NCBI GenBank assembly: GCA_016000045.1
Contig: JAECQY010000005.1
Span: 12,159-76,158 of the forward strand
DNA length: 64,000 nt
Direction of reading: 5' to 3'
From: Myxococcaceae bacterium
Lineage (GTDB): Bacteria; Myxococcota; UBA727; JABDBI01
The position numbers and the translations under genes were made by a program. Below the pieces are notes generated by a model. It did not search any database and was not told where the DNA came from. It was given only the letters and a program-made list of their open reading frames with translations. Positions 33,965 to 49,068 of the stretch are shown here, in pieces (the stretch's first letter is position 1; each line of letters opens with the position of its first letter).

Positions 33965-33985
33965 GGCTACTGCCACTCAGTAGCC
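33965..33985. terminator. Hairpin between convergent genes
   Basis: GGCTACTG (33965-33972) and CAGTAGCC (33978-33985) form a perfect 8-bp stem around CCACT. It lies between the plus-strand small exported gene and the minus-strand E1 gene, overlapping the E1 stop. There is no clear U-run on either strand, so it could be a weak bidirectional terminator or an mRNA 3' end stabiliser. Confidence 0.4.
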
Positions 33986-35944
33986 TATCATTTCGATGAT
34001 CGCTTGCTCGATTTGAGCCTCTTGCGGTAAAATCGCCGTCTCCAGAACTTTTGAGAAACCCACGGGGATATCCAGCGCTGTGACGCGACGCACCGGTGCA
34101 TCCAAATACTCAAAACAAGCCTCTTGGATTTGAGCAATGATTTCACCCGATAAACCGTTAAACGAATGATCTTCGTGAACGACCAAAGCCCGGCTGGTTT
34201 TCTTGATCGAATCAGCGATTCCCTGGATATCGAGGGGTTTAATGGAGCGCAAGTCCAGCACTTCGACTTGAAAGCGCTCAGACAATCTTTCGGCAACGTT
34301 CAGTGCCATGTGAACGGTGTTTCCGTAAGTGATCAAAGTTAAGTGGCTCCCCTGTCTGCGGATACGGCTCTTTCCAAACGGCACTGCATGCTCTGGACCG
34401 AGCTTAGGCCCTTTGGCTTCGGATCGGTTATACAAATACTTGGGCTCCAAGAAAAACGTCATTCCCTCTGAACGCATGGCGGTTCTGAGGAGCCCGGCTG
34501 CATCGTCCGCAAACGAAGGATAAACCACTCGGACTCCCGGCAAGTGGCTCATCATCGCTTCGACGTTTTGAGAGTGATAAAGCCCGCCCGTAATATAGCC
34601 ACCAGAGGCCAAACGAAGCACGACGTTCGGAGAAAATTGGCCGTTGGTACGCCAGTACTCATGACTCATCTCAACGATCTGCTCCATGGCAGGCCAAACG
34701 TAATCCGCAAACTCTGCGGCCTCAATCACCACTCGGATCGAAGGATTAAAACGTGTAAACCCATTCGCAGTTCCTACGATGTAATTTTCTGCCAGCGGAG
34801 CGTTAAAAACACGTCCGGATCCAAACTCCGCCAACATCCCTTTGCTCAGATTAAAAACGCCCCCCTTCTCTTTAGACGCAACATCTTGACCCCACAGAAA
34901 AGTATCTGAATTATGTCGAAACTCTTCGATTAAGGTTCGATTGATCGCTTCTCGAAGCTTTTCATCCGCTTTTTCGACCACCCCACTAAAATCACGACCC
35001 AAGAAGCAAGGAGAAGTGGCAAATTTGTGTACCGATTGAGGGCTGGGTTGCGGGGCTTTTTCAGCTTGCTCGGCAGCTTGATCCAGTTCTATCTCGACGG
35101 CTTCTTCAATCTTTTGCGCTTCTTCCTCAGAGAGCAAAGCCCGCAATTTGGGCAATGGATCGCTTCGTTTGGCTTCTTCGATTTCTTCTTTCGAGCGATA
35201 AAGCTCTTGAGCATCGGAATTCGAATGGGCTCCGATCCGAATGCACTGCGCGTGAACCATCGCAGGCCCACCGTTGGATCGAATATGCTCAACCGCTTTT
35301 TGCACAGCACGGTGAGAGTCTTCAAAATCGGTCCCATCGCAGTTCACAATCAGAAGATTTTTAAGACCTCGGTAGTTTTCCGAAACAATCACGTTGGCGC
35401 TCTGCTCCGAAGTGGGGACTGAGATACCGTATCCATTGTTTTGAATAACAAATAAAACTGGCAATTTTTCACGTGAAGCGCCGTTATAGGCTTCAAAACA
35501 GTAGCCTTCCGATGTTGAACTCTCGCCTTGCGAGCTCATGGCAATGGCGTCTGATCGATAATACCGAATCGCCCGAGCAACGCCCACGGCATGCAAGGTA
35601 TGATTTCCCGTGCAGGAAGACACCGATTGAATCCCGATCGCCGGTTTTCCGAAGTGATTGGACATGTGTCGCCCACCCGAGCCAGTATCTCCGGCCTTGG
35701 ACAATCCGTTCAGCATGAGCTCGAGAGGAGTCATTCCAGCCGCCAAGACCGTGGCTGTGTCCCGGTAATAGGGAAACAGAAAGTCTTTGTTGGGACGAAA
35801 CTGAAGCCCCAAAGCAATCTGAATCGGCTCGTGGCCAGAACAGCGTGCATGATAGGACCAGCCCATCCCTCGACGAATGTAGCGTGCTGCGCGTTCGTCT
35901 AATTGCCGGGCCATGTAAGCTAATCGATACCACTGTGCTTTCAT
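33977..35944 (-). CDS. Branched-chain 2-oxoacid dehydrogenase E1, alpha and beta fused
   Basis: 655 residues. The first half is the E1 alpha subunit: thiamine diphosphate motif SSQGESSTSEGYCFEAYN leading to NNGYGISVPT, and the phosphorylation-loop-like SKAGDTGSGGRHMSNH. A Glu/Gln-rich linker (residues ~290-315) joins it to the beta subunit, with IVGTANGFTRFNP, EAAEFADYVWPA, SGGYITGGLYHSQNVEA and the C-terminal transketolase domain (LDLRSIKPLDIQGI). E1 oxidatively decarboxylates branched 2-oxo acids, feeding branched-chain acyl-CoA to fatty acids. The E2 and E3 genes are not in the window. It overlaps the next upstream small gene by four bases. Confidence 0.9.
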   Translation of the reverse strand: MKAQWYRLAYMARQLDERAARYIRRGMGWSYHARCSGHEPIQIALGLQFRPNKDFLFPYYRDTATVLAAGMTPLELMLNGLSKAGDTGSGGRHMSNHFGKPAIGIQSVSSCTGNHTLHAVGVARAIRYYRSDAIAMSSQGESSTSEGYCFEAYNGASREKLPVLFVIQNNGYGISVPTSEQSANVIVSENYRGLKNLLIVNCDGTDFEDSHRAVQKAVEHIRSNGGPAMVHAQCIRIGAHSNSDAQELYRSKEEIEEAKRSDPLPKLRALLSEEEAQKIEEAVEIELDQAAEQAEKAPQPSPQSVHKFATSPCFLGRDFSGVVEKADEKLREAINRTLIEEFRHNSDTFLWGQDVASKEKGGVFNLSKGMLAEFGSGRVFNAPLAENYIVGTANGFTRFNPSIRVVIEAAEFADYVWPAMEQIVEMSHEYWRTNGQFSPNVVLRLASGGYITGGLYHSQNVEAMMSHLPGVRVVYPSFADDAAGLLRTAMRSEGMTFFLEPKYLYNRSEAKGPKLGPEHAVPFGKSRIRRQGSHLTLITYGNTVHMALNVAERLSERFQVEVLDLRSIKPLDIQGIADSIKKTSRALVVHEDHSFNGLSGEIIAQIQEACFEYLDAPVRRVTALDIPVGFSKVLETAILPQEAQIEQAIIEMIGY

Positions 35945-37667: not shown

Positions 37668-40600
37668 ATGAAGTTGCTCGCCACCGTGTCCGCCTTCCTG
37701 TGCTTATCGACACTCACCATCGCGGCTTCATTGAGTTTTACTAACCTACAGGACCCGCAAACAAATCCGCTATTTGGACAACTCATCTCGGATCAGGAAT
37801 TTGATCCGAATTCAAAGACACAAGCAACGGCCGCAGCCATGAGCGCATTGTTGACCTATATGGCACCAAACATTAAAAGCATACCTGATTATGCTGGTTA
37901 TTTTTCAGGAAATTGCTCGGTATTCTTTGACAACACAAGCATCCATCAAGTGAATTGCAACATCATTCCTGTGGCCATTGTATCCGTCAATGAGACACAG
38001 CAATTCAATTCGCCCATCCGTTTGCCTTATCAATATGCGACTCAGATTACTCAAAGTCATATTTTATTGGCAGGCCTATTGGCTGATTGGACACGAAAAA
38101 TTGCTCAAAAGTTGGAACAGTTTGAGGTCAGCCTGTTTGAAAAGGCCCCGACTTGTACGATATCCGAGAGTATCACAACCACTCAAAATTCAACAGCGAC
38201 GGATACTTGGGTTGCAACACCAACGTCTTCCCCTTCTCAGCTAGCATCCACGAGTAACACTCAAAAAAATTCCAATACGTTAAGCGAATTAGTATCTCAC
38301 ACACTTTCGTCTTCGAAAAGCGCTACAAGCACACGAAATCAATCATACAGCACAAGTATCATTGATTCAAACAGCCACACTAATTCCAAAAGCAATACAA
38401 CGTTGCATAGCGATTCAGTGTCACGATCACAGTCAGATTACCCAATTTGCTCTCTCAACCTGTATGCCGATGCCACGAGCCAACCTGCCAGGTACCTTGT
38501 GATAGGAAGTGCTTCGAACTCGACAGTGACTGATTTATGGACAGGGTTAGCATGGGAACAGATTGGCTCTGAACTGGCAATGACTTGGCTACAAGCTCAG
38601 GATTATTGCGCATCGATATCAAAAGGAGGATTCACAGACTGGAGATTACCGGGCATCACTGAACTGCAGTCCTTGGTCGATTACACCGTAGGCAATCCTG
38701 GTCCGACCATGGATGCCACGGCATTTCACAATACTCCCGTGAGCCAAACTTGGACCTCTGTTCAAAGCGCAGGCAACAGTGGGTACTCTTGGGCCATTGA
38801 TTTTGCACTGGGTCAAATATCGTCTGATACAGACAACAATCCCAAAGCGGTTCGATGTGTCCGAGGAGACTCTGTCATTTTGCTGAATCGATATACAGAT
38901 GAAGATGGCTATCCCTTGAACAATCAAAGCACTCAAGTTCGAGACGTATTATCCGGTTTAACTTGGGAACGAATACTCTCGGCGTCTTATGTCACTTGGA
39001 GTGCAGCTCAAGCGTACTGTCAAAATCTTACCCTGGGCGCAACCAGTTGGCGATTGCCAACCATTAAGGAACTGACCAGCCTCATCGATTATGATTGCTA
39101 TTCACCGGCAATCAATCAAACCGCGTTTCCGATGCCTACTTCCAACTTCTTCTGGTCATCCACTCCATTCATGGATACATCTGGGAACGGTTGGATTGCA
39201 AGTTTTGCCTACAACGGGTTGGTTGAATACGACAATACAGTTGGTGACACCAATCACGCGCTTTGCGTTCGAGATTCCACCTGGGCATCTGAGGCTTATG
39301 CAGATGCGACCCATCAAACAGACCGATATGTCATCGCTGGCAATGATCCTGAGGCTGTTGTGACCGACACCTTCACTGGACTGATGTGGGAACAAACTTC
39401 TTCACCGAAAGCGATGACTTGGGAAAATGCTTCTTCGTATTGTGCCGGCTTGGTTAAAGGGAATTATGGGTGTTGGAGGTTGCCAACACCACAAGAGTTG
39501 CAATCATTAATTGATTTTACACTTTCCAATCCAGCGATTGATACGACTGTATTTTTTAATACACCATTAAACCCGTTTTGGGCTTCGGCAATTTACGCAG
39601 GCACAACAACAGGTGCATGGAGTACGAACTTCGCTTCTGGATATACGGATGGTGGGTACAGCAATACCAACTACAACATTCGATGTGTGCGCAAAACAAG
39701 TGTAGATCCAGCTGTTCGCTACACAAACGAAAATGGAAACCAGTTAACCAGTCAAGATGTCCAAGTAAAAGATCAAATAACGGGACTGATTTGGCAACGT
39801 GCTGAGGCTAATGGATTTTTTTCATGGGATGCTAACGCAACAGGTTCAGCTCAGGGTTACTGCCAAAATCTTGTGATTGAACGTCGAGGAACAGGTGATT
39901 GGTGTCTACCTACTGCTAGACAATTGGCTAGTCTTGTAGACTATTCGATTGCTAATCCTGGTCCTACGATCAACATGACAGCATTTCCAGATACTGCGCA
40001 AAATGGATATTGGTCTTCAACCAGATATACTGCCTCTTTGGGTAGTGCATGGAACCTCTATTTCGCTCATGGTGCTTTGATTTTTCTCGGTACGAATAGA
40101 GTTTGCAATGTTCGCTGCATTTTATGTAACAGCGCTACAAGTAACAACGGCATGTGGTCACCACTGGCTTATGAGGACGCCACCAATCAAACTGCACGCT
40201 ACTCTGTTTCAGGCACGACTCCAAATGCTATCGTTACGGATGATTTCACGGGCCTGATGTGGGAACAGCAGGTCTCTAGTTCGACTTATTTTTGGAATGC
40301 TTCTGCTCCAGCGGGGTCAGCTCAGGCTTATTGCACGAACTTGGCGAAGGGCGGATATCTGGATTGGAGGCTGCCGACTCACCGAGAGTTCTGGGCAATT
40401 ACCGACTATACTATTGCTGTGTCTCCGGCCATTATGAGTTCCGTGTTTCCTGGTACTCCTTCAAGTAAGTTCTGGACAGCAACCAGGCTGCTCAACACTG
40501 ACAACAGCACGTGGTACATTGATTTCTTGGATGGTTCAACCTATTTCGATCTGAGTAACATCGGTTATAAAGTGAGATGCGTTCGCGGTTCTGTAGTTAG

Positions 40601-42764
40601 CATTTCAAACAGATATCAAGATTCTCATGGCAATCAATTAACGGATTTGAGCACGAAAGTGCTCGATATGTTCACTGGATTCGTTTGGCAACGTAGAATT
40701 GCGCCACAAGTTCTTCCCTGGAATTCAGCTCCTGAATCAGCAAAATCATATTGCCAAAACCTGGTGATCGAAGAATACGGCGCTAGTTCCTGGAGTCTGC
40801 CAACTGTCAAGCAGTTAAATAGTCTGGAAGACTATTCAAAATACAATCCTAGTATAAACAATACGGTTTTTCCGGGTCCAATCACAAATTATCACGTTTG
40901 GTCATCAACGCCTTTGGTGCGCAATCCAAATTATGCCTGGCTTCCCTTTTTTGGAACTGGGAATGGTGGCTCTTACGGTCTTCTTCCCAATACCTATCTT
41001 GTACGCTGCATTCTCAACTCCTCAGCCCCGCCGAACAACGGCATGTGGTCACCGCTGGCTTATCAAGATGCAACCAACCAAGTTGCACGCTACTCTGTTT
41101 CAGGCTCAAGCCCAAACACCATCGTTACCGATGATTTCACCGGACTGATGTGGGAACAGCAGGTTTCGCCATCCACATACCTTTGGAATGCCTCTGCACC
41201 CGCGGGTTCGGCTCAGGCGTATTGCACCAGTCTGACGAAGGGCGGATATGCGGATTGGAGATTGCCAAGTGTTTCGGAATTGCAATCATTAGTAGACTAT
41301 ACAATATACAGCCCCGCCATCAACAGCGCAGCATTTCAAGGCGCAACTGGCTATTTTTGGACGAACTCGTTGTGGGACCTAAGATTTAGCAATGCCGGTA
41401 TTATTGCACCAGATGGTGGACTCCGAAACGTGCGTTGTGTACGAGGATCTACGTATTTTCCCGCAACCCGCTATGTTGATGAAAACGAAAATATTTTGAG
41501 CAACTCCAGTCTTCAAGTTAAAGACTTGGTAACCGGGTTAATATGGCAACGAAGAACAGCGTCTGCTTTGCTGCAAGGGTCTTCTCAAACATACTGCCCA
41601 AATTTAGTGGTTGGCAACCAAGGGGCAGGAAGCTGGCGTTTGCCAACAACAAAAGAACTAACTTCACTGTTCAATACTTCCATAACGGGCAACGCTCCAA
41701 GAACCGATATAGTTGCCTTTTTTGACACACAAACAGGCCCATATTGGACCTCAACACCGGGAATTGGGAGCGGCTTGTCCGAATTCTGCGTTTCTTTCGG
41801 CAGCGGCAACATTGTAGATTTTTCGTACAATAATATGCTTGGAACGGCGCACGTCCGCTGCATCCTCAATGCCTCTGCACCCGCAAATGATGGCATGTGG
41901 TCGCCTCTGGCCTACGAAGACGCTACCAATCAAACCGCGCGCTACTATATTTCAGGAACTTCACCCAATGCGATTGTTACGGATGATTTTACCGGACTGA
42001 TGTGGGAGCAAACCGGCTCCAGCGTTCCTCTTACTTGGAACGCGACTTCAGTGCCAGGTTCTATCCAAGCCTACTGTGACAATCTCAACAAAGGAACTTA
42101 TCTTGATTGGCGAGTGCCCAACATCGTTGAATTGCAGTCTTTGGAGGACTACACACTTCCGTCTGCAGGTCCGACCATCAACCAAGTAGTGTTCCCAGGA
42201 ACTCAGATCGGTTGTTACTGGACATCGATTCCTGCGCCAGGAACTTTGGTTCCATGGCATGCGAGTTTTGGTGCAAGTTCCAACTATGGCGGTGCGGTCT
42301 GCAATCCTTTGACGCAAGGAGATTGTGTTGTTTCTCCAGGGTATGCAAGATGTGTCCGTGGCGGCAAAGAATCGGTCTCGAATCGATATGCGGATGAATT
42401 TGGAAACCCCTTTAATTCTACCAGCACGCAAATTAGCGACCAGGTGACAGGGCTGATATGGCAGCGTACCCAAGCAGCAACAATATACAACTGGAGTGCA
42501 GCTCAAGGGTATTGTCAAAACTTGGCTCTTGCAGGACAGCTTTGGCGGTTACCCAGTATTAAGGAGCTGACCACCTTAGTCAATTACACGATCGCTTCAG
42601 GACCCATGATTCATGTAGAAGCTTTCCCGGGTACGCCAAGTGCACCTTTTTGGTCCTCTACAACAACACCAGGGGGATTACCGTGGAACGTTTTTTTCTC
42701 CAACGGTTTCGTTTGTGGCGGCATTCCAGGATACAATAGTTATCATGTTCGCTGCGTACGTTGA
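37668..42764 (+). CDS. Giant secreted protein with ten DUF1566/Lcl_C-like domains
   Basis: 1698 residues from the ATG at 37668; a TTG 30 bases earlier is less likely. Order: a signal peptide (residues 1-19, LLATVSAFLCLSTLTIAA); an N-terminal domain to ~165 with NCSVFFDNTS; a Ser/Thr/Asn-rich stalk (~170-262); then ten related domains of ~140 residues to the end. Each domain has a TGLxWE/Q box, an aromatic-Trp strand, a YC, the WRLPTxxEL core and a closing RCVR or RCIL, as in the DUF1566/Lcl_C family (C-type-lectin-like). Odd domains open with YxDATxQxARY and TGLMWEQ, even ones with RYxDExGN and TGLIWQR, so the array is five A-B units. No C-terminal anchor is present. Binding and adhesion are inferred from the family; the ligand is unknown. 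Confidence 0.88.
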   Translation: MKLLATVSAFLCLSTLTIAASLSFTNLQDPQTNPLFGQLISDQEFDPNSKTQATAAAMSALLTYMAPNIKSIPDYAGYFSGNCSVFFDNTSIHQVNCNIIPVAIVSVNETQQFNSPIRLPYQYATQITQSHILLAGLLADWTRKIAQKLEQFEVSLFEKAPTCTISESITTTQNSTATDTWVATPTSSPSQLASTSNTQKNSNTLSELVSHTLSSSKSATSTRNQSYSTSIIDSNSHTNSKSNTTLHSDSVSRSQSDYPICSLNLYADATSQPARYLVIGSASNSTVTDLWTGLAWEQIGSELAMTWLQAQDYCASISKGGFTDWRLPGITELQSLVDYTVGNPGPTMDATAFHNTPVSQTWTSVQSAGNSGYSWAIDFALGQISSDTDNNPKAVRCVRGDSVILLNRYTDEDGYPLNNQSTQVRDVLSGLTWERILSASYVTWSAAQAYCQNLTLGATSWRLPTIKELTSLIDYDCYSPAINQTAFPMPTSNFFWSSTPFMDTSGNGWIASFAYNGLVEYDNTVGDTNHALCVRDSTWASEAYADATHQTDRYVIAGNDPEAVVTDTFTGLMWEQTSSPKAMTWENASSYCAGLVKGNYGCWRLPTPQELQSLIDFTLSNPAIDTTVFFNTPLNPFWASAIYAGTTTGAWSTNFASGYTDGGYSNTNYNIRCVRKTSVDPAVRYTNENGNQLTSQDVQVKDQITGLIWQRAEANGFFSWDANATGSAQGYCQNLVIERRGTGDWCLPTARQLASLVDYSIANPGPTINMTAFPDTAQNGYWSSTRYTASLGSAWNLYFAHGALIFLGTNRVCNVRCILCNSATSNNGMWSPLAYEDATNQTARYSVSGTTPNAIVTDDFTGLMWEQQVSSSTYFWNASAPAGSAQAYCTNLAKGGYLDWRLPTHREFWAITDYTIAVSPAIMSSVFPGTPSSKFWTATRLLNTDNSTWYIDFLDGSTYFDLSNIGYKVRCVRGSVVSISNRYQDSHGNQLTDLSTKVLDMFTGFVWQRRIAPQVLPWNSAPESAKSYCQNLVIEEYGASSWSLPTVKQLNSLEDYSKYNPSINNTVFPGPITNYHVWSSTPLVRNPNYAWLPFFGTGNGGSYGLLPNTYLVRCILNSSAPPNNGMWSPLAYQDATNQVARYSVSGSSPNTIVTDDFTGLMWEQQVSPSTYLWNASAPAGSAQAYCTSLTKGGYADWRLPSVSELQSLVDYTIYSPAINSAAFQGATGYFWTNSLWDLRFSNAGIIAPDGGLRNVRCVRGSTYFPATRYVDENENILSNSSLQVKDLVTGLIWQRRTASALLQGSSQTYCPNLVVGNQGAGSWRLPTTKELTSLFNTSITGNAPRTDIVAFFDTQTGPYWTSTPGIGSGLSEFCVSFGSGNIVDFSYNNMLGTAHVRCILNASAPANDGMWSPLAYEDATNQTARYYISGTSPNAIVTDDFTGLMWEQTGSSVPLTWNATSVPGSIQAYCDNLNKGTYLDWRVPNIVELQSLEDYTLPSAGPTINQVVFPGTQIGCYWTSIPAPGTLVPWHASFGASSNYGGAVCNPLTQGDCVVSPGYARCVRGGKESVSNRYADEFGNPFNSTSTQISDQVTGLIWQRTQAATIYNWSAAQGYCQNLALAGQLWRLPSIKELTTLVNYTIASGPMIHVEAFPGTPSAPFWSSTTTPGGLPWNVFFSNGFVCGGIPGYNSYHVRCVR
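38458..42764 (+). repeat. Five tandem ~850-bp A-B domain units within one gene
   Basis: A-type domains begin near 38458, 39291, 40166, 41060 and 41908; B-type domains near 38884, 39709, 40609, 41465 and 42379. The period is ~830-895 bp. Units 3-5 share almost the same linker and opening (GMWSPLAYEDATNQTARY or close variants) and are clearly more alike than units 1-2, so the 3' part of the gene expanded most recently. Confidence 0.85.
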
Positions 42765-42849
42765 TCATTATAACGATGCGCGCGTCCAGTCTCACTGGCA
42801 TCCACTCACAAAAAGTTTTTGAATTTGCTCAGGATCAAGTTGTGTCAGC

Positions 42850-46882: not shown

Positions 46883-47751
46883 TCAACGCACACAGCGGAC
46901 ATAGTTGAGACCACTAATACTAGTCGTGAAAGCACTGCCAGCATTGAAAACGACATACCATACGTTGGATGGAGACAAAGCCTTGGAAGTTGATGACCAA
47001 AACCAATTCGCTGGCTCGCCCGAAAACACGGTGGTGTCCATCATGAGGCTGGCATAGCCCTTACTGTAATCCACGATTGTCTGCAGCTCGCGAAGAGTCG
47101 GCAAACGCCACCCGGCTCCAGAACCTCCGAGACTAAGCGCACCGCAATAGTTAATGGCATTCGGCTGAGTGTACGTTGTTCTAGACGCCACCTTCTGCCA
47201 AATCAAGCCGGTCACGTTATCTGTCACTGTACCGGCTGCTCGTCGAGGTCATTTGATAACCCGAATAAGGGTCACTCGCGGACGTCCGCACAAACCAAGC
47301 ATATCCATTCCGCGCAATGGCAACCGAAGCAAAGACCATCGGCGTTGTACCGGCGATTTGCTCCCACTGTATAGCCATCAGCGTATCACTTACGACTCCG
47401 TTCGAAACTGTATAGCGATCCGTTTGATTCAGCGCATCGCTGTAGGCACCTGTTCTACGGTCCCAGGCCGCTCAAAGCCGATGCTGGCTCAAAACCTGGC
47501 CAACAATCTACACGCTCAACAAATGCATCAAAAAACACCGAGCAATTGAGCTCGAAGGGCAAGCGATATCCGGTACTTGACTTCACCTGATTCGCAATCC
47601 GGTTTAAAAGCGCTCGAACGGCTGTTTGACCCTGATTCCGTGTCGAAAGATTTTGGAAATGCCGGTGAAAATGATCTCCAAAATCCCTATTGATCGAAAA
47701 CTGAGCCAGAACTCCGAAAGAAAAACAAAGCATCCAAGCAAACTGAAACAT
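46883..47751 (-). pseudogene. Decayed paralogue of the giant DUF1566 protein (one A-B unit)
   Basis: Three frames together reconstruct a small relative. The 5' frame (47751 downward) gives a signal peptide and NCSVFFDAFVERVDC, matching NCSVFFD in the giant protein's N-terminal domain. Near 47470-47500 the frame shifts; the next frame reads AYSDALNQTDRYTVSNG and IQWEQIAGTTP, the start of an A-type domain that then seems internally deleted. Near 47225 another shift leads to a full B-type domain with VTGLIWQK, GWRLPTLRELQTIVDY and a terminal YVRCVR. It therefore had the N-domain and one A-B unit without the Ser/Thr stalk. Sequencing error is possible but two shifts plus a deletion favour true decay. 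Confidence 0.75.
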
Positions 47752-48987
47752 TTAATACCCTCGATTGGCGCAAATGATCCGAATGAGTTCTCCAAGGTGG
47801 TTCAGAGCAATATCCTGAGGCATGGCATTTCTCTTAAAGGGCTGTATCCACTTTTGAGGCAGAGGAAGTTCAGCCTTGGCACAATGACCTTTCCACAAAG
47901 ACCAACCCAAAAGCCCCAGATCAACTCCCGCCTTCACAAAACTGATATAACCCAATGCCAAAGGAATCCCCTCTGCGATTCCTTGCAAAGCATCGTTTTC
48001 CTCAGCGCTTTCTGAAGAAAAGCGAATCGCCGCCAACAAAGCAGCCAAAGCTTCCCCTCCGCTCATCGCTCCTAAGAACACTTTGTCTTGGAGCTCCAAG
48101 GGAGGACGAGCCAGCACAACTCCAACCCAAAAGGCGCTTAGCGTCCCAGCGACCCCACCGACTAAAGCTTTGCAAGAAACCTGTGGACTTTGCTGCAAAG
48201 CGCGCAAACCGCCCAGAAGGACATTCATGCCGTATTCGGCTAAAATAAAGGCATAGTACTTAGGCTCGTATTCTTCGAACAAAGCTCCATAGCGTTCCAC
48301 ATACTCAGCATTGGACTGGGTTGAACGCCAGCGTTCTTTCACATAGCGAGCATCAAAACGACTGGGCCAAAGCTCCCAAGCAATCCGGCCCATCACGCTC
48401 AAACAACCTGCCCAAGAAGCGAAACCCACTGTTTTTTCAAGCCCATTCCCGAGTCGCAACAAAGTTGTTGAAAATTCGGCAAGAGGGGAAATAAATAATA
48501 AAACCGGCAAGACTCCGAAGCCCGGAAAATGCACTTTGGCATCGCCAAAATAACGAGCAGAGGCAATATGAACCAATTCAAAGCCTCCAATAATCAACCA
48601 ATTGCCTAAAATTGCCCCGTCGAGATACTGAAAGGCCCCATCTCCCAGCGAGATTTGCAGAGGGCTGTCCAGCCAATCCAGCGGCTGCGTCGAAAACTCT
48701 CCCGAACCTTGGCAAGAAATCAGACGCGATACCGAGGCAAGACGGGAGCCTTGCGTGACCCCAGTCGGTGATAGAACCGCCAAAGCAGCGATACTGCTAA
48801 CCTGAGCCACCGAAAGCGATGCCTCGACTACTGCAGGGCTGATCACGCTGGCAGGAGCGGCTGTTTGCCATTCGAAAGGATCCGCCCATTCAGAAACAAA
48901 GGCATCGCATTCGATCTCTTCAACGGCGGCGAAAGCAAATCCGGCGCTTAAACTTCCTAAAAAAACGAATAATTTGGGATATTTCAT
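47752..48987 (-). CDS. Exported multi-helix membrane protein of unknown function
   Basis: 411 residues from the ATG at 48987 (MKYPKLFVFLGSLSAGFAFA is a signal peptide); an earlier Met at 49014 places polar residues before it. After a ~110-residue Ala/Ser-rich region with two Cys, several hydrophobic helices follow (for example FGVLPVLLFISPLAEF, ALVGGVAGTLSAFWVGVVL, GIPLALGYISF). I know no family for it. Its stop directly abuts the start of the decayed A-B paralogue, so the two formed a unit, which suggests a past role in export or anchoring of that protein. That role is speculative. Confidence 0.6.
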   Translation of the reverse strand: MKYPKLFVFLGSLSAGFAFAAVEEIECDAFVSEWADPFEWQTAAPASVISPAVVEASLSVAQVSSIAALAVLSPTGVTQGSRLASVSRLISCQGSGEFSTQPLDWLDSPLQISLGDGAFQYLDGAILGNWLIIGGFELVHIASARYFGDAKVHFPGFGVLPVLLFISPLAEFSTTLLRLGNGLEKTVGFASWAGCLSVMGRIAWELWPSRFDARYVKERWRSTQSNAEYVERYGALFEEYEPKYYAFILAEYGMNVLLGGLRALQQSPQVSCKALVGGVAGTLSAFWVGVVLARPPLELQDKVFLGAMSGGEALAALLAAIRFSSESAEENDALQGIAEGIPLALGYISFVKAGVDLGLLGWSLWKGHCAKAELPLPQKWIQPFKRNAMPQDIALNHLGELIRIICANRGY

Positions 48988-49068
48988 GATTGATGAACCT
49001 AAATCAAATAACAATTCTGGGAGAGCTATACCTTTGGGGAATGAATGGCAAGTTCGTCGCTTTTCATA

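Follow-up and report, generated by a model that had tools for sequence, protein, structure and literature searches.

The question raised by this locus is what a single chain carrying ten domains of the Lcl_C family (PF07603/DUF1566) does and how so long an array came about. The locus lies within a stretch of 64 000 nucleotides, which is referred to here as the window. Our preferred reading, which we consider probable, is that the encoded protein is a fixed, secreted, likely surface-held and multivalent binder composed of five A-B lectin-fold units. The open reading frame (ORF) runs with its frame intact from an ATG at 37668 to a stop codon at 42762-42764. Ten Lcl_C stretches are recognized by Pfam (E = 9.3e-228; 742 bits against a curated cut-off of 34.9 for PF07603) and continue to the stop codon. 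The gene and its parts are as follows.

37668..42764, + strand: Lcl_C array gene, 1698 residues, five A-B units (ORF, Pfam, tree)
37668..37727, + strand: apparent Sec-type signal peptide, MKLLATVSAFLCLSTLTIAA (by-eye reading of the sequence)
37728..38132, + strand: N-terminal head domain, about 135 residues (sequence comparison)
38160..38453, + strand: Ser/Thr/Asn-rich stalk, residues about 165-262 (composition)
38457..39272, + strand: unit 1, with A = d1 (to 38864) and B = d2 (tree, domain mapping)
39273..40124, + strand: unit 2, with A = d3 (to 39692) and B = d4 (tree, domain mapping)
40125..41015, + strand: unit 3, with A = d5 (to 40586) and B = d6 (tree, domain mapping)
41016..41867, + strand: unit 4, with A = d7 (to 41444) and B = d8 (tree, domain mapping)
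41868..42761, + strand: unit 5, with A = d9 (to 42359) and B = d10; the unit used for structure prediction (tree, AlphaFold2)

The protein opens with what appears to be a signal peptide and is presumably secreted and held at the cell surface. A Pfam search of the array protein assigned the head that follows to no family. Sequence comparison relates the head to those of some 20 other Lcl_C genes in the genome and to those of two retroelement target A proteins described below; its identity to the latter (33-38%) makes the window array a paralogue of the retroelement set. Residues 151-270, which span the stalk, include 30 serines, 21 threonines and nine asparagines, and the array protein sequence contains no Gly-X-Y repeat of the kind found in a collagen-like stalk.

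The initial annotation had described ten domains of two alternating types behind a Ser/Thr stalk and had taken the A-B pair, rather than the single domain, as the unit of duplication. The ORF, the Pfam matches and the domain tree all agree with this description, and a maximum-likelihood tree of the ten domains (IQ-TREE) separates odd from even domains with a support of 100/100. The same organization extends across the genome (1.32 Mb in 11 contigs, 99.6% complete), which contains about 156 Lcl_C domains, a count that rests on a genome search together with fetched contig regions. The fetched regions hold 163 domain matches across 65 open frames; 36 of these frames have an even domain count (2, 4, 6, 10 or 12), and a single tree split assigns all 134 of their domains to A and B in strict alternation. 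The leftover single domains are nearly all of A type, B being found alone in two retroelement cassettes and in a decayed gene of the window (46883-47227). Links within pairs are short (median 8 residues, n = 67) compared with those between pairs (19 residues, n = 31). Even counts also prevail in other genomes, where the corresponding links measure 15 and 157 residues in a sample collected with an A-B query and therefore biased towards pairs. When A and B profiles built from this genome were applied to outside proteins, the odd/even assignment was close to random. The strict A-B identity is thus a trait of this lineage, although pairing is general.

The further claim that ten domains on one stalk are unusual is only partly right because sister genes hold 10-12 domains: the genome encodes two more ten-domain ORFs and one 12-domain ORF, the unit number among sister genes ranging from 1 to 6, and ten Lcl_C domains are also present in one outside genome (L092, UBP6 UBA1177). 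Lcl_C genes, measured as stop-to-stop frames, occupy about 8% of the genome DNA; a single Lcl_C domain was found in the one same-genus relative that was searched, and the nearest named Lcl_C neighbours include Myxococcales. Many contig ends lie in or near Lcl_C genes (C3:1-513, C10:2-478, C5:134789-135247, C4:136242, C9:80820, C7:88288 and C11:448), so that these repeats probably interrupt the assembly, and the genome may hold more domains than were counted. At C7:32595-38730 there is a series of short Lcl_C-like genes, each with one domain of a divergent type whose end is marked by an RLVRD-like motif in place of RCVR.

Structure prediction suggests that pairing extends to the fold. The AlphaFold2 model of unit 5 (95 aligned pairs) has a pLDDT of 87.3 and a pTM of 0.85, with an ordered A-B junction (pLDDT 92-97); an A-B interface is read from the pTM and the junction confidence only. 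The opposite register, B-A (d8-d9), is poorly ordered at its junction (pLDDT 49-62, pTM 0.76) in a prediction based on 20 sequences only, and the comparison of the two registers is supportive only because the alignment depth differs. Judged by the alternation, the short links within pairs and these models, the A-B pair is the unit of duplication and very probably also that of folding.

A search of the PDB by sequence gave no match. A Foldseek search of the PDB with the unit 5 model gave the tip of the Legionella adhesin Lcl (PDB code 8q4e; probability 0.99, TMt 0.52) as the top hit, followed at lower ranks by InvE, invasin, snaclecs (PDB code 3ubu, TMt 0.54) and Bdellovibrio Bd2740 (PDB code 8oks, TMt 0.58), with E-values that are weak throughout (about 0.02-0.14, including 0.024 for a match of probability 0.99). 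The predicted unit thus appears ordered and C-type-lectin-like. The top matches (the Lcl tip, InvE, snaclecs and Bd2740) are binding proteins, and the fold, being that of known adhesin tips, points by analogy to an adhesive role for the window protein, its ligands being presumably glycans or proteins of a host or of neighbouring cells. Lcl_C domains occur widely, and not all of them need be binders.

The initial annotation, which was made from the sequence only, had missed a retroelement that diversifies sister arrays of the window gene. A complete diversity-generating retroelement (DGR) is present at C11:445-4477; the order along contig C11 is putative membrane protein, target A, Avd-like protein, template repeat, reverse transcriptase (RT) and target B. 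Target A (448 residues) has the same kind of head as the window array, a stalk and one A domain, and target B (163 residues) consists of one B domain. The RT is one of two in the genome, each of which is beside Lcl_C genes; it matches PF00078 above the cut-off and contains the DGR-type motifs IGNLTSQ and YVDD, as read from its sequence. The Avd-like protein is at the expected place and matches NF033474 (E = 4.5e-8) and PF22296 (E = 5.9e-8), in both cases below the curated cut-off. Comparison of the 92-nucleotide template core with the two targets of the locus shows changes at 19 of 28 and 12 of 28 adenines and at none of the 64 other bases. The template also matches six B domains in arrays on contigs C1 and C3, distant from C11, and for the eight repeats pooled 132 of 224 adenines are changed compared with 24 of 512 other bases (Fisher p = 9e-59). 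Terminal repeats are followed by TGAAGA[CT]GGGAT and the template by TGAAGATGGGAG, as expected of IMH and IMH*. Related cassettes, comprising an Lcl_C target, an Avd-like gene and an RT, are found in other genomes of the phylum (G029 and G043).

Seven arrays form the clade that matches the template. Identity among their A domains is 0.90 upstream and 0.84 at the template-asparagine columns, whereas the corresponding values for their B domains are 0.87 and 0.15; A is therefore constant and B hypervariable at the retroelement sites. These sequence comparisons suggest that in sister arrays of this one recent clade only the B domains are rewritten, in trans, by the C11 retroelement. The contrast between A and B would also agree with a tentative alternative for the window array, in which the retroelement writes the last B domain beside the motif and A-B duplication then pushes the used B inward, where it is frozen, long arrays such as that of the window being old archives of binders. 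The terminal B domains of C1_224095, C3_53612, C3_80705 and C3_84368 indeed match the template and carry the motif. The internal domains C3_53612 d2 and C3_86215 d2 lack the motif but have retained an adenine-biased signature, along with seven and eight non-A changes of 64 compared with 0-4 in terminal or free-standing repeats. Generalized to the genome, the same observations might describe a receptor repertoire with constant A domains, B domains rewritten in trans and older B faces archived by duplication, of which the window array would be an old, frozen example; we regard this scheme as possible but doubtful.

The window array itself shows none of the current signatures of a target, as summarized for its 3' end.

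42669..42780, + strand: site that a variable repeat and retrohoming motif would occupy in a current target, both absent (template and motif comparison)

None of the ten window domains matches the template (non-A identity 0.39-0.51, against a background median of 0.45), and their adenine bias (Fisher p of 0.01-0.62 per domain, uncorrected) survives correction for ten tests in none of them. The retrohoming (IMH-like) motif TGA[AG]GA[CT]GGGA is absent, the sequence from the window stop codon on being TGATCATTATAACG instead. On these three grounds the array was rejected as a live DGR target, and the lack of a template match and of adenine bias likewise counts against its being an archive of rewritten domains. 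The window columns that correspond to template asparagines are very variable (0.06 for A and 0.10 for B). Variability at template-adenine columns was rejected as proof of past DGR action, because outside the genome, too, these columns are highly variable and rank with the least conserved of Lcl_C domains (0.097); this also weakens the case for an archive. The residues Trp, Gln, Lys, Glu and Met are scarce at the template-asparagine columns of the window array (two of 108, compared with 12% outside; p = 1e-4), which favours an archive and may be read as a weak hint of retroelement ancestry. The fourfold codons do not bear this out: pyrimidine-ending codons make up 83 of 108 overall but 33 of 56 at fourfold codons, where there is no clear excess, which again speaks against an archive; a pyrimidine excess was set aside as a weak fossil sign in the window array.

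The variable columns sit in the C-terminal loop region, and their variability in outside members could also be understood if the protein had a structural role, as a building block of a surface layer or sheath, and its variation were neutral drift on exposed loops. We consider this improbable. The range of unit numbers among sister genes given above speaks against it, as does the fact that the genome has kept a retroelement directed at precisely these columns in sister proteins, an indication that the surface serves for binding.

The length of the window array probably goes back to past duplication. The closest paralogue is the six-domain gene C6_56360, the head of which is 63% identical to that of the window array and the domains d1-d5 of which are colinear with those of the window array at 60, 61, 54, 41 and 59% identity. 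Window domains d7 and d9 are close to C6_56360 d5, and both genes read TGATCATT starting with the stop codon. This colinearity suggests that duplication in the region of units 3-5 probably added about two units to the window array. It had been proposed that units 3-5 are much more alike than the others and that the array is still growing. The first proposal holds for the linker and the first half of A (about 70-85% nucleotide identity compared with about 50%), while the second halves of A, and B, are no closer than in other units; whole-unit protein identities of the other units to unit 5 are 47, 47, 43 and 43%. As for the second, C6_56360 documents past unit duplication, and ongoing growth is not supported.

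Recombination between repeats may have left traces elsewhere in the genome. A second cassette (C1:171824-175266) retains A, RT and B; neither Avd nor a template is present in it, and a template of its type is absent from the whole assembly. Six variable repeats of this type are distributed over contigs C1, C3, C5 and C10. Its target A continues into GGGAGA, which resembles the template and immediately precedes the RT; such a junction may be the leftover of recombination between a variable and a template repeat. Such recombination, together with the presence of more than 150 related domains in one small genome, would suit a role for the window units as a reservoir from which gene conversion copies segments into expressed sister genes, in the manner of antigenic variation. 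This role is very unlikely, as the window domains reach at most about 63% protein identity to any other domain of the genome, leaving no near-identical tract such as recent gene conversion would produce, and the gene has its own start, a signal peptide and an intact frame of 1698 residues. A 36-codon RT remnant lies between two A-B genes at C7:86787-86894 (- strand) and is probably a further dead cassette.

Two neighbours of the array in the window are connected with the Lcl_C genes.

46883..47750, - strand: decayed A-B gene, B being open (46883-47227) and A present as frameshifted remnants (Pfam, tree)
47752..49014, - strand: putative membrane protein, 420 residues (paralogy)

The 420-residue protein is paralogous to the product of the gene immediately preceding the retroelement target A genes. 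It has about nine genomic copies, six of them beside Lcl_C genes and one right after C6_56360, which makes it a candidate partner in export or anchoring. The other Pfam-matched genes of the window have housekeeping, transport or respiratory functions; at 33977-35944 (- strand), pyruvate dehydrogenase E1 alpha and beta are fused in one 655-residue ORF. Outside the window, a full-length ATP/ADP translocase (PF03219; C9:57843-59291) adjoins the 12-domain Lcl_C array. The translocase is also full-length in three family relatives and split in a fourth, and only weak matches occur at the level of the order. Together with the genome sizes in the family (0.3-1.8 Mb), it suggests a host-dependent, probably intracellular life. 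A translocase of this kind in a genome so reduced is in keeping with a cell that depends on a host and has to bind to it.

A binder of this kind might work as follows. A head that matches no Pfam family and a flexible Ser/Thr stalk would hold out five rigid A-B units, in each of which two C-type-lectin-fold (Lcl_C) domains are covalently joined as a heterodimer; looser links would string the units together like beads, and the C-terminal loops of each domain would provide a variable, ligand-facing surface. The array would have grown by duplication of A-B units. Its two folds would also serve as the separate A and B targets of a retroelement elsewhere in the genome, with which the window array would share its ancestry but not its present rewriting, so that its ten binding faces would be fixed and mutually different.

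Snaclecs, which are C-type lectins of snake venom, are heterodimers of two such domains. Bdellovibrio Bd2740 (PDB code 8oks) is a MAT fibre tip of a prey-recognition fibre and has no calcium site (PMC10769870). In both cases a C-type-lectin fold serves cell binding, and the resemblance to the window protein is one of fold only: separate chains or trimers are found there, whereas the window protein has covalent tandem A-B units. Closer is Lcl itself, the C-terminal domain of which (PF07603, PDB code 8q4e) forms the tip of a stalked, secreted Legionella adhesin and binds sulphated glycosaminoglycans (PMC11162425). The domain family and fold are the same as those of the window domains. However, an Lcl chain carries a single domain on a collagen stalk, and the chains assemble into non-covalent trimers, whereas the window protein has ten domains arranged as A-B pairs on one chain with a Ser/Thr stalk; and the Lcl domain is reported without disulphides (PMC11162425), whereas each window domain has two near-invariant cysteines.

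DUF1566 is reported to be the commonest Pfam domain among DGR targets (PMC6642488, PMC4159848). The C11 locus resembles such systems in its RT with the IGNLTSQ motif, its Avd-like protein, its template and its several targets, with adenine-specific variable repeats at the C-terminus of the Lcl_C proteins. It differs in having two target folds that flank the RT, A before and B after, and in the fusion of these folds into A-B pairs in sister arrays, where rewriting in trans appears to be confined to B. A DGR of Pseudomonas costantinii has 21 variable repeats in one ORF (PMC6642488) and likewise targets a multi-repeat adhesive protein; here, in contrast, some B domains of sister arrays, mostly the last, match the template and none in the window array does. 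No matching A-B or array-plus-DGR system was found in the literature searched, which excluded most subscription papers. DUF1566-type DGR targets are known, but mostly as single genes, and this one genome displays a series from a complete two-fold cassette through a decayed, template-less cassette and arrays in which B alone is rewritten in trans to static arrays of up to twelve domains. The series makes it testable how binding diversity made by a retroelement is fused, multiplied and fixed. Taken alone, the window protein is a large member of a known family; taken with its genome, it is part of a retroelement-linked repertoire.
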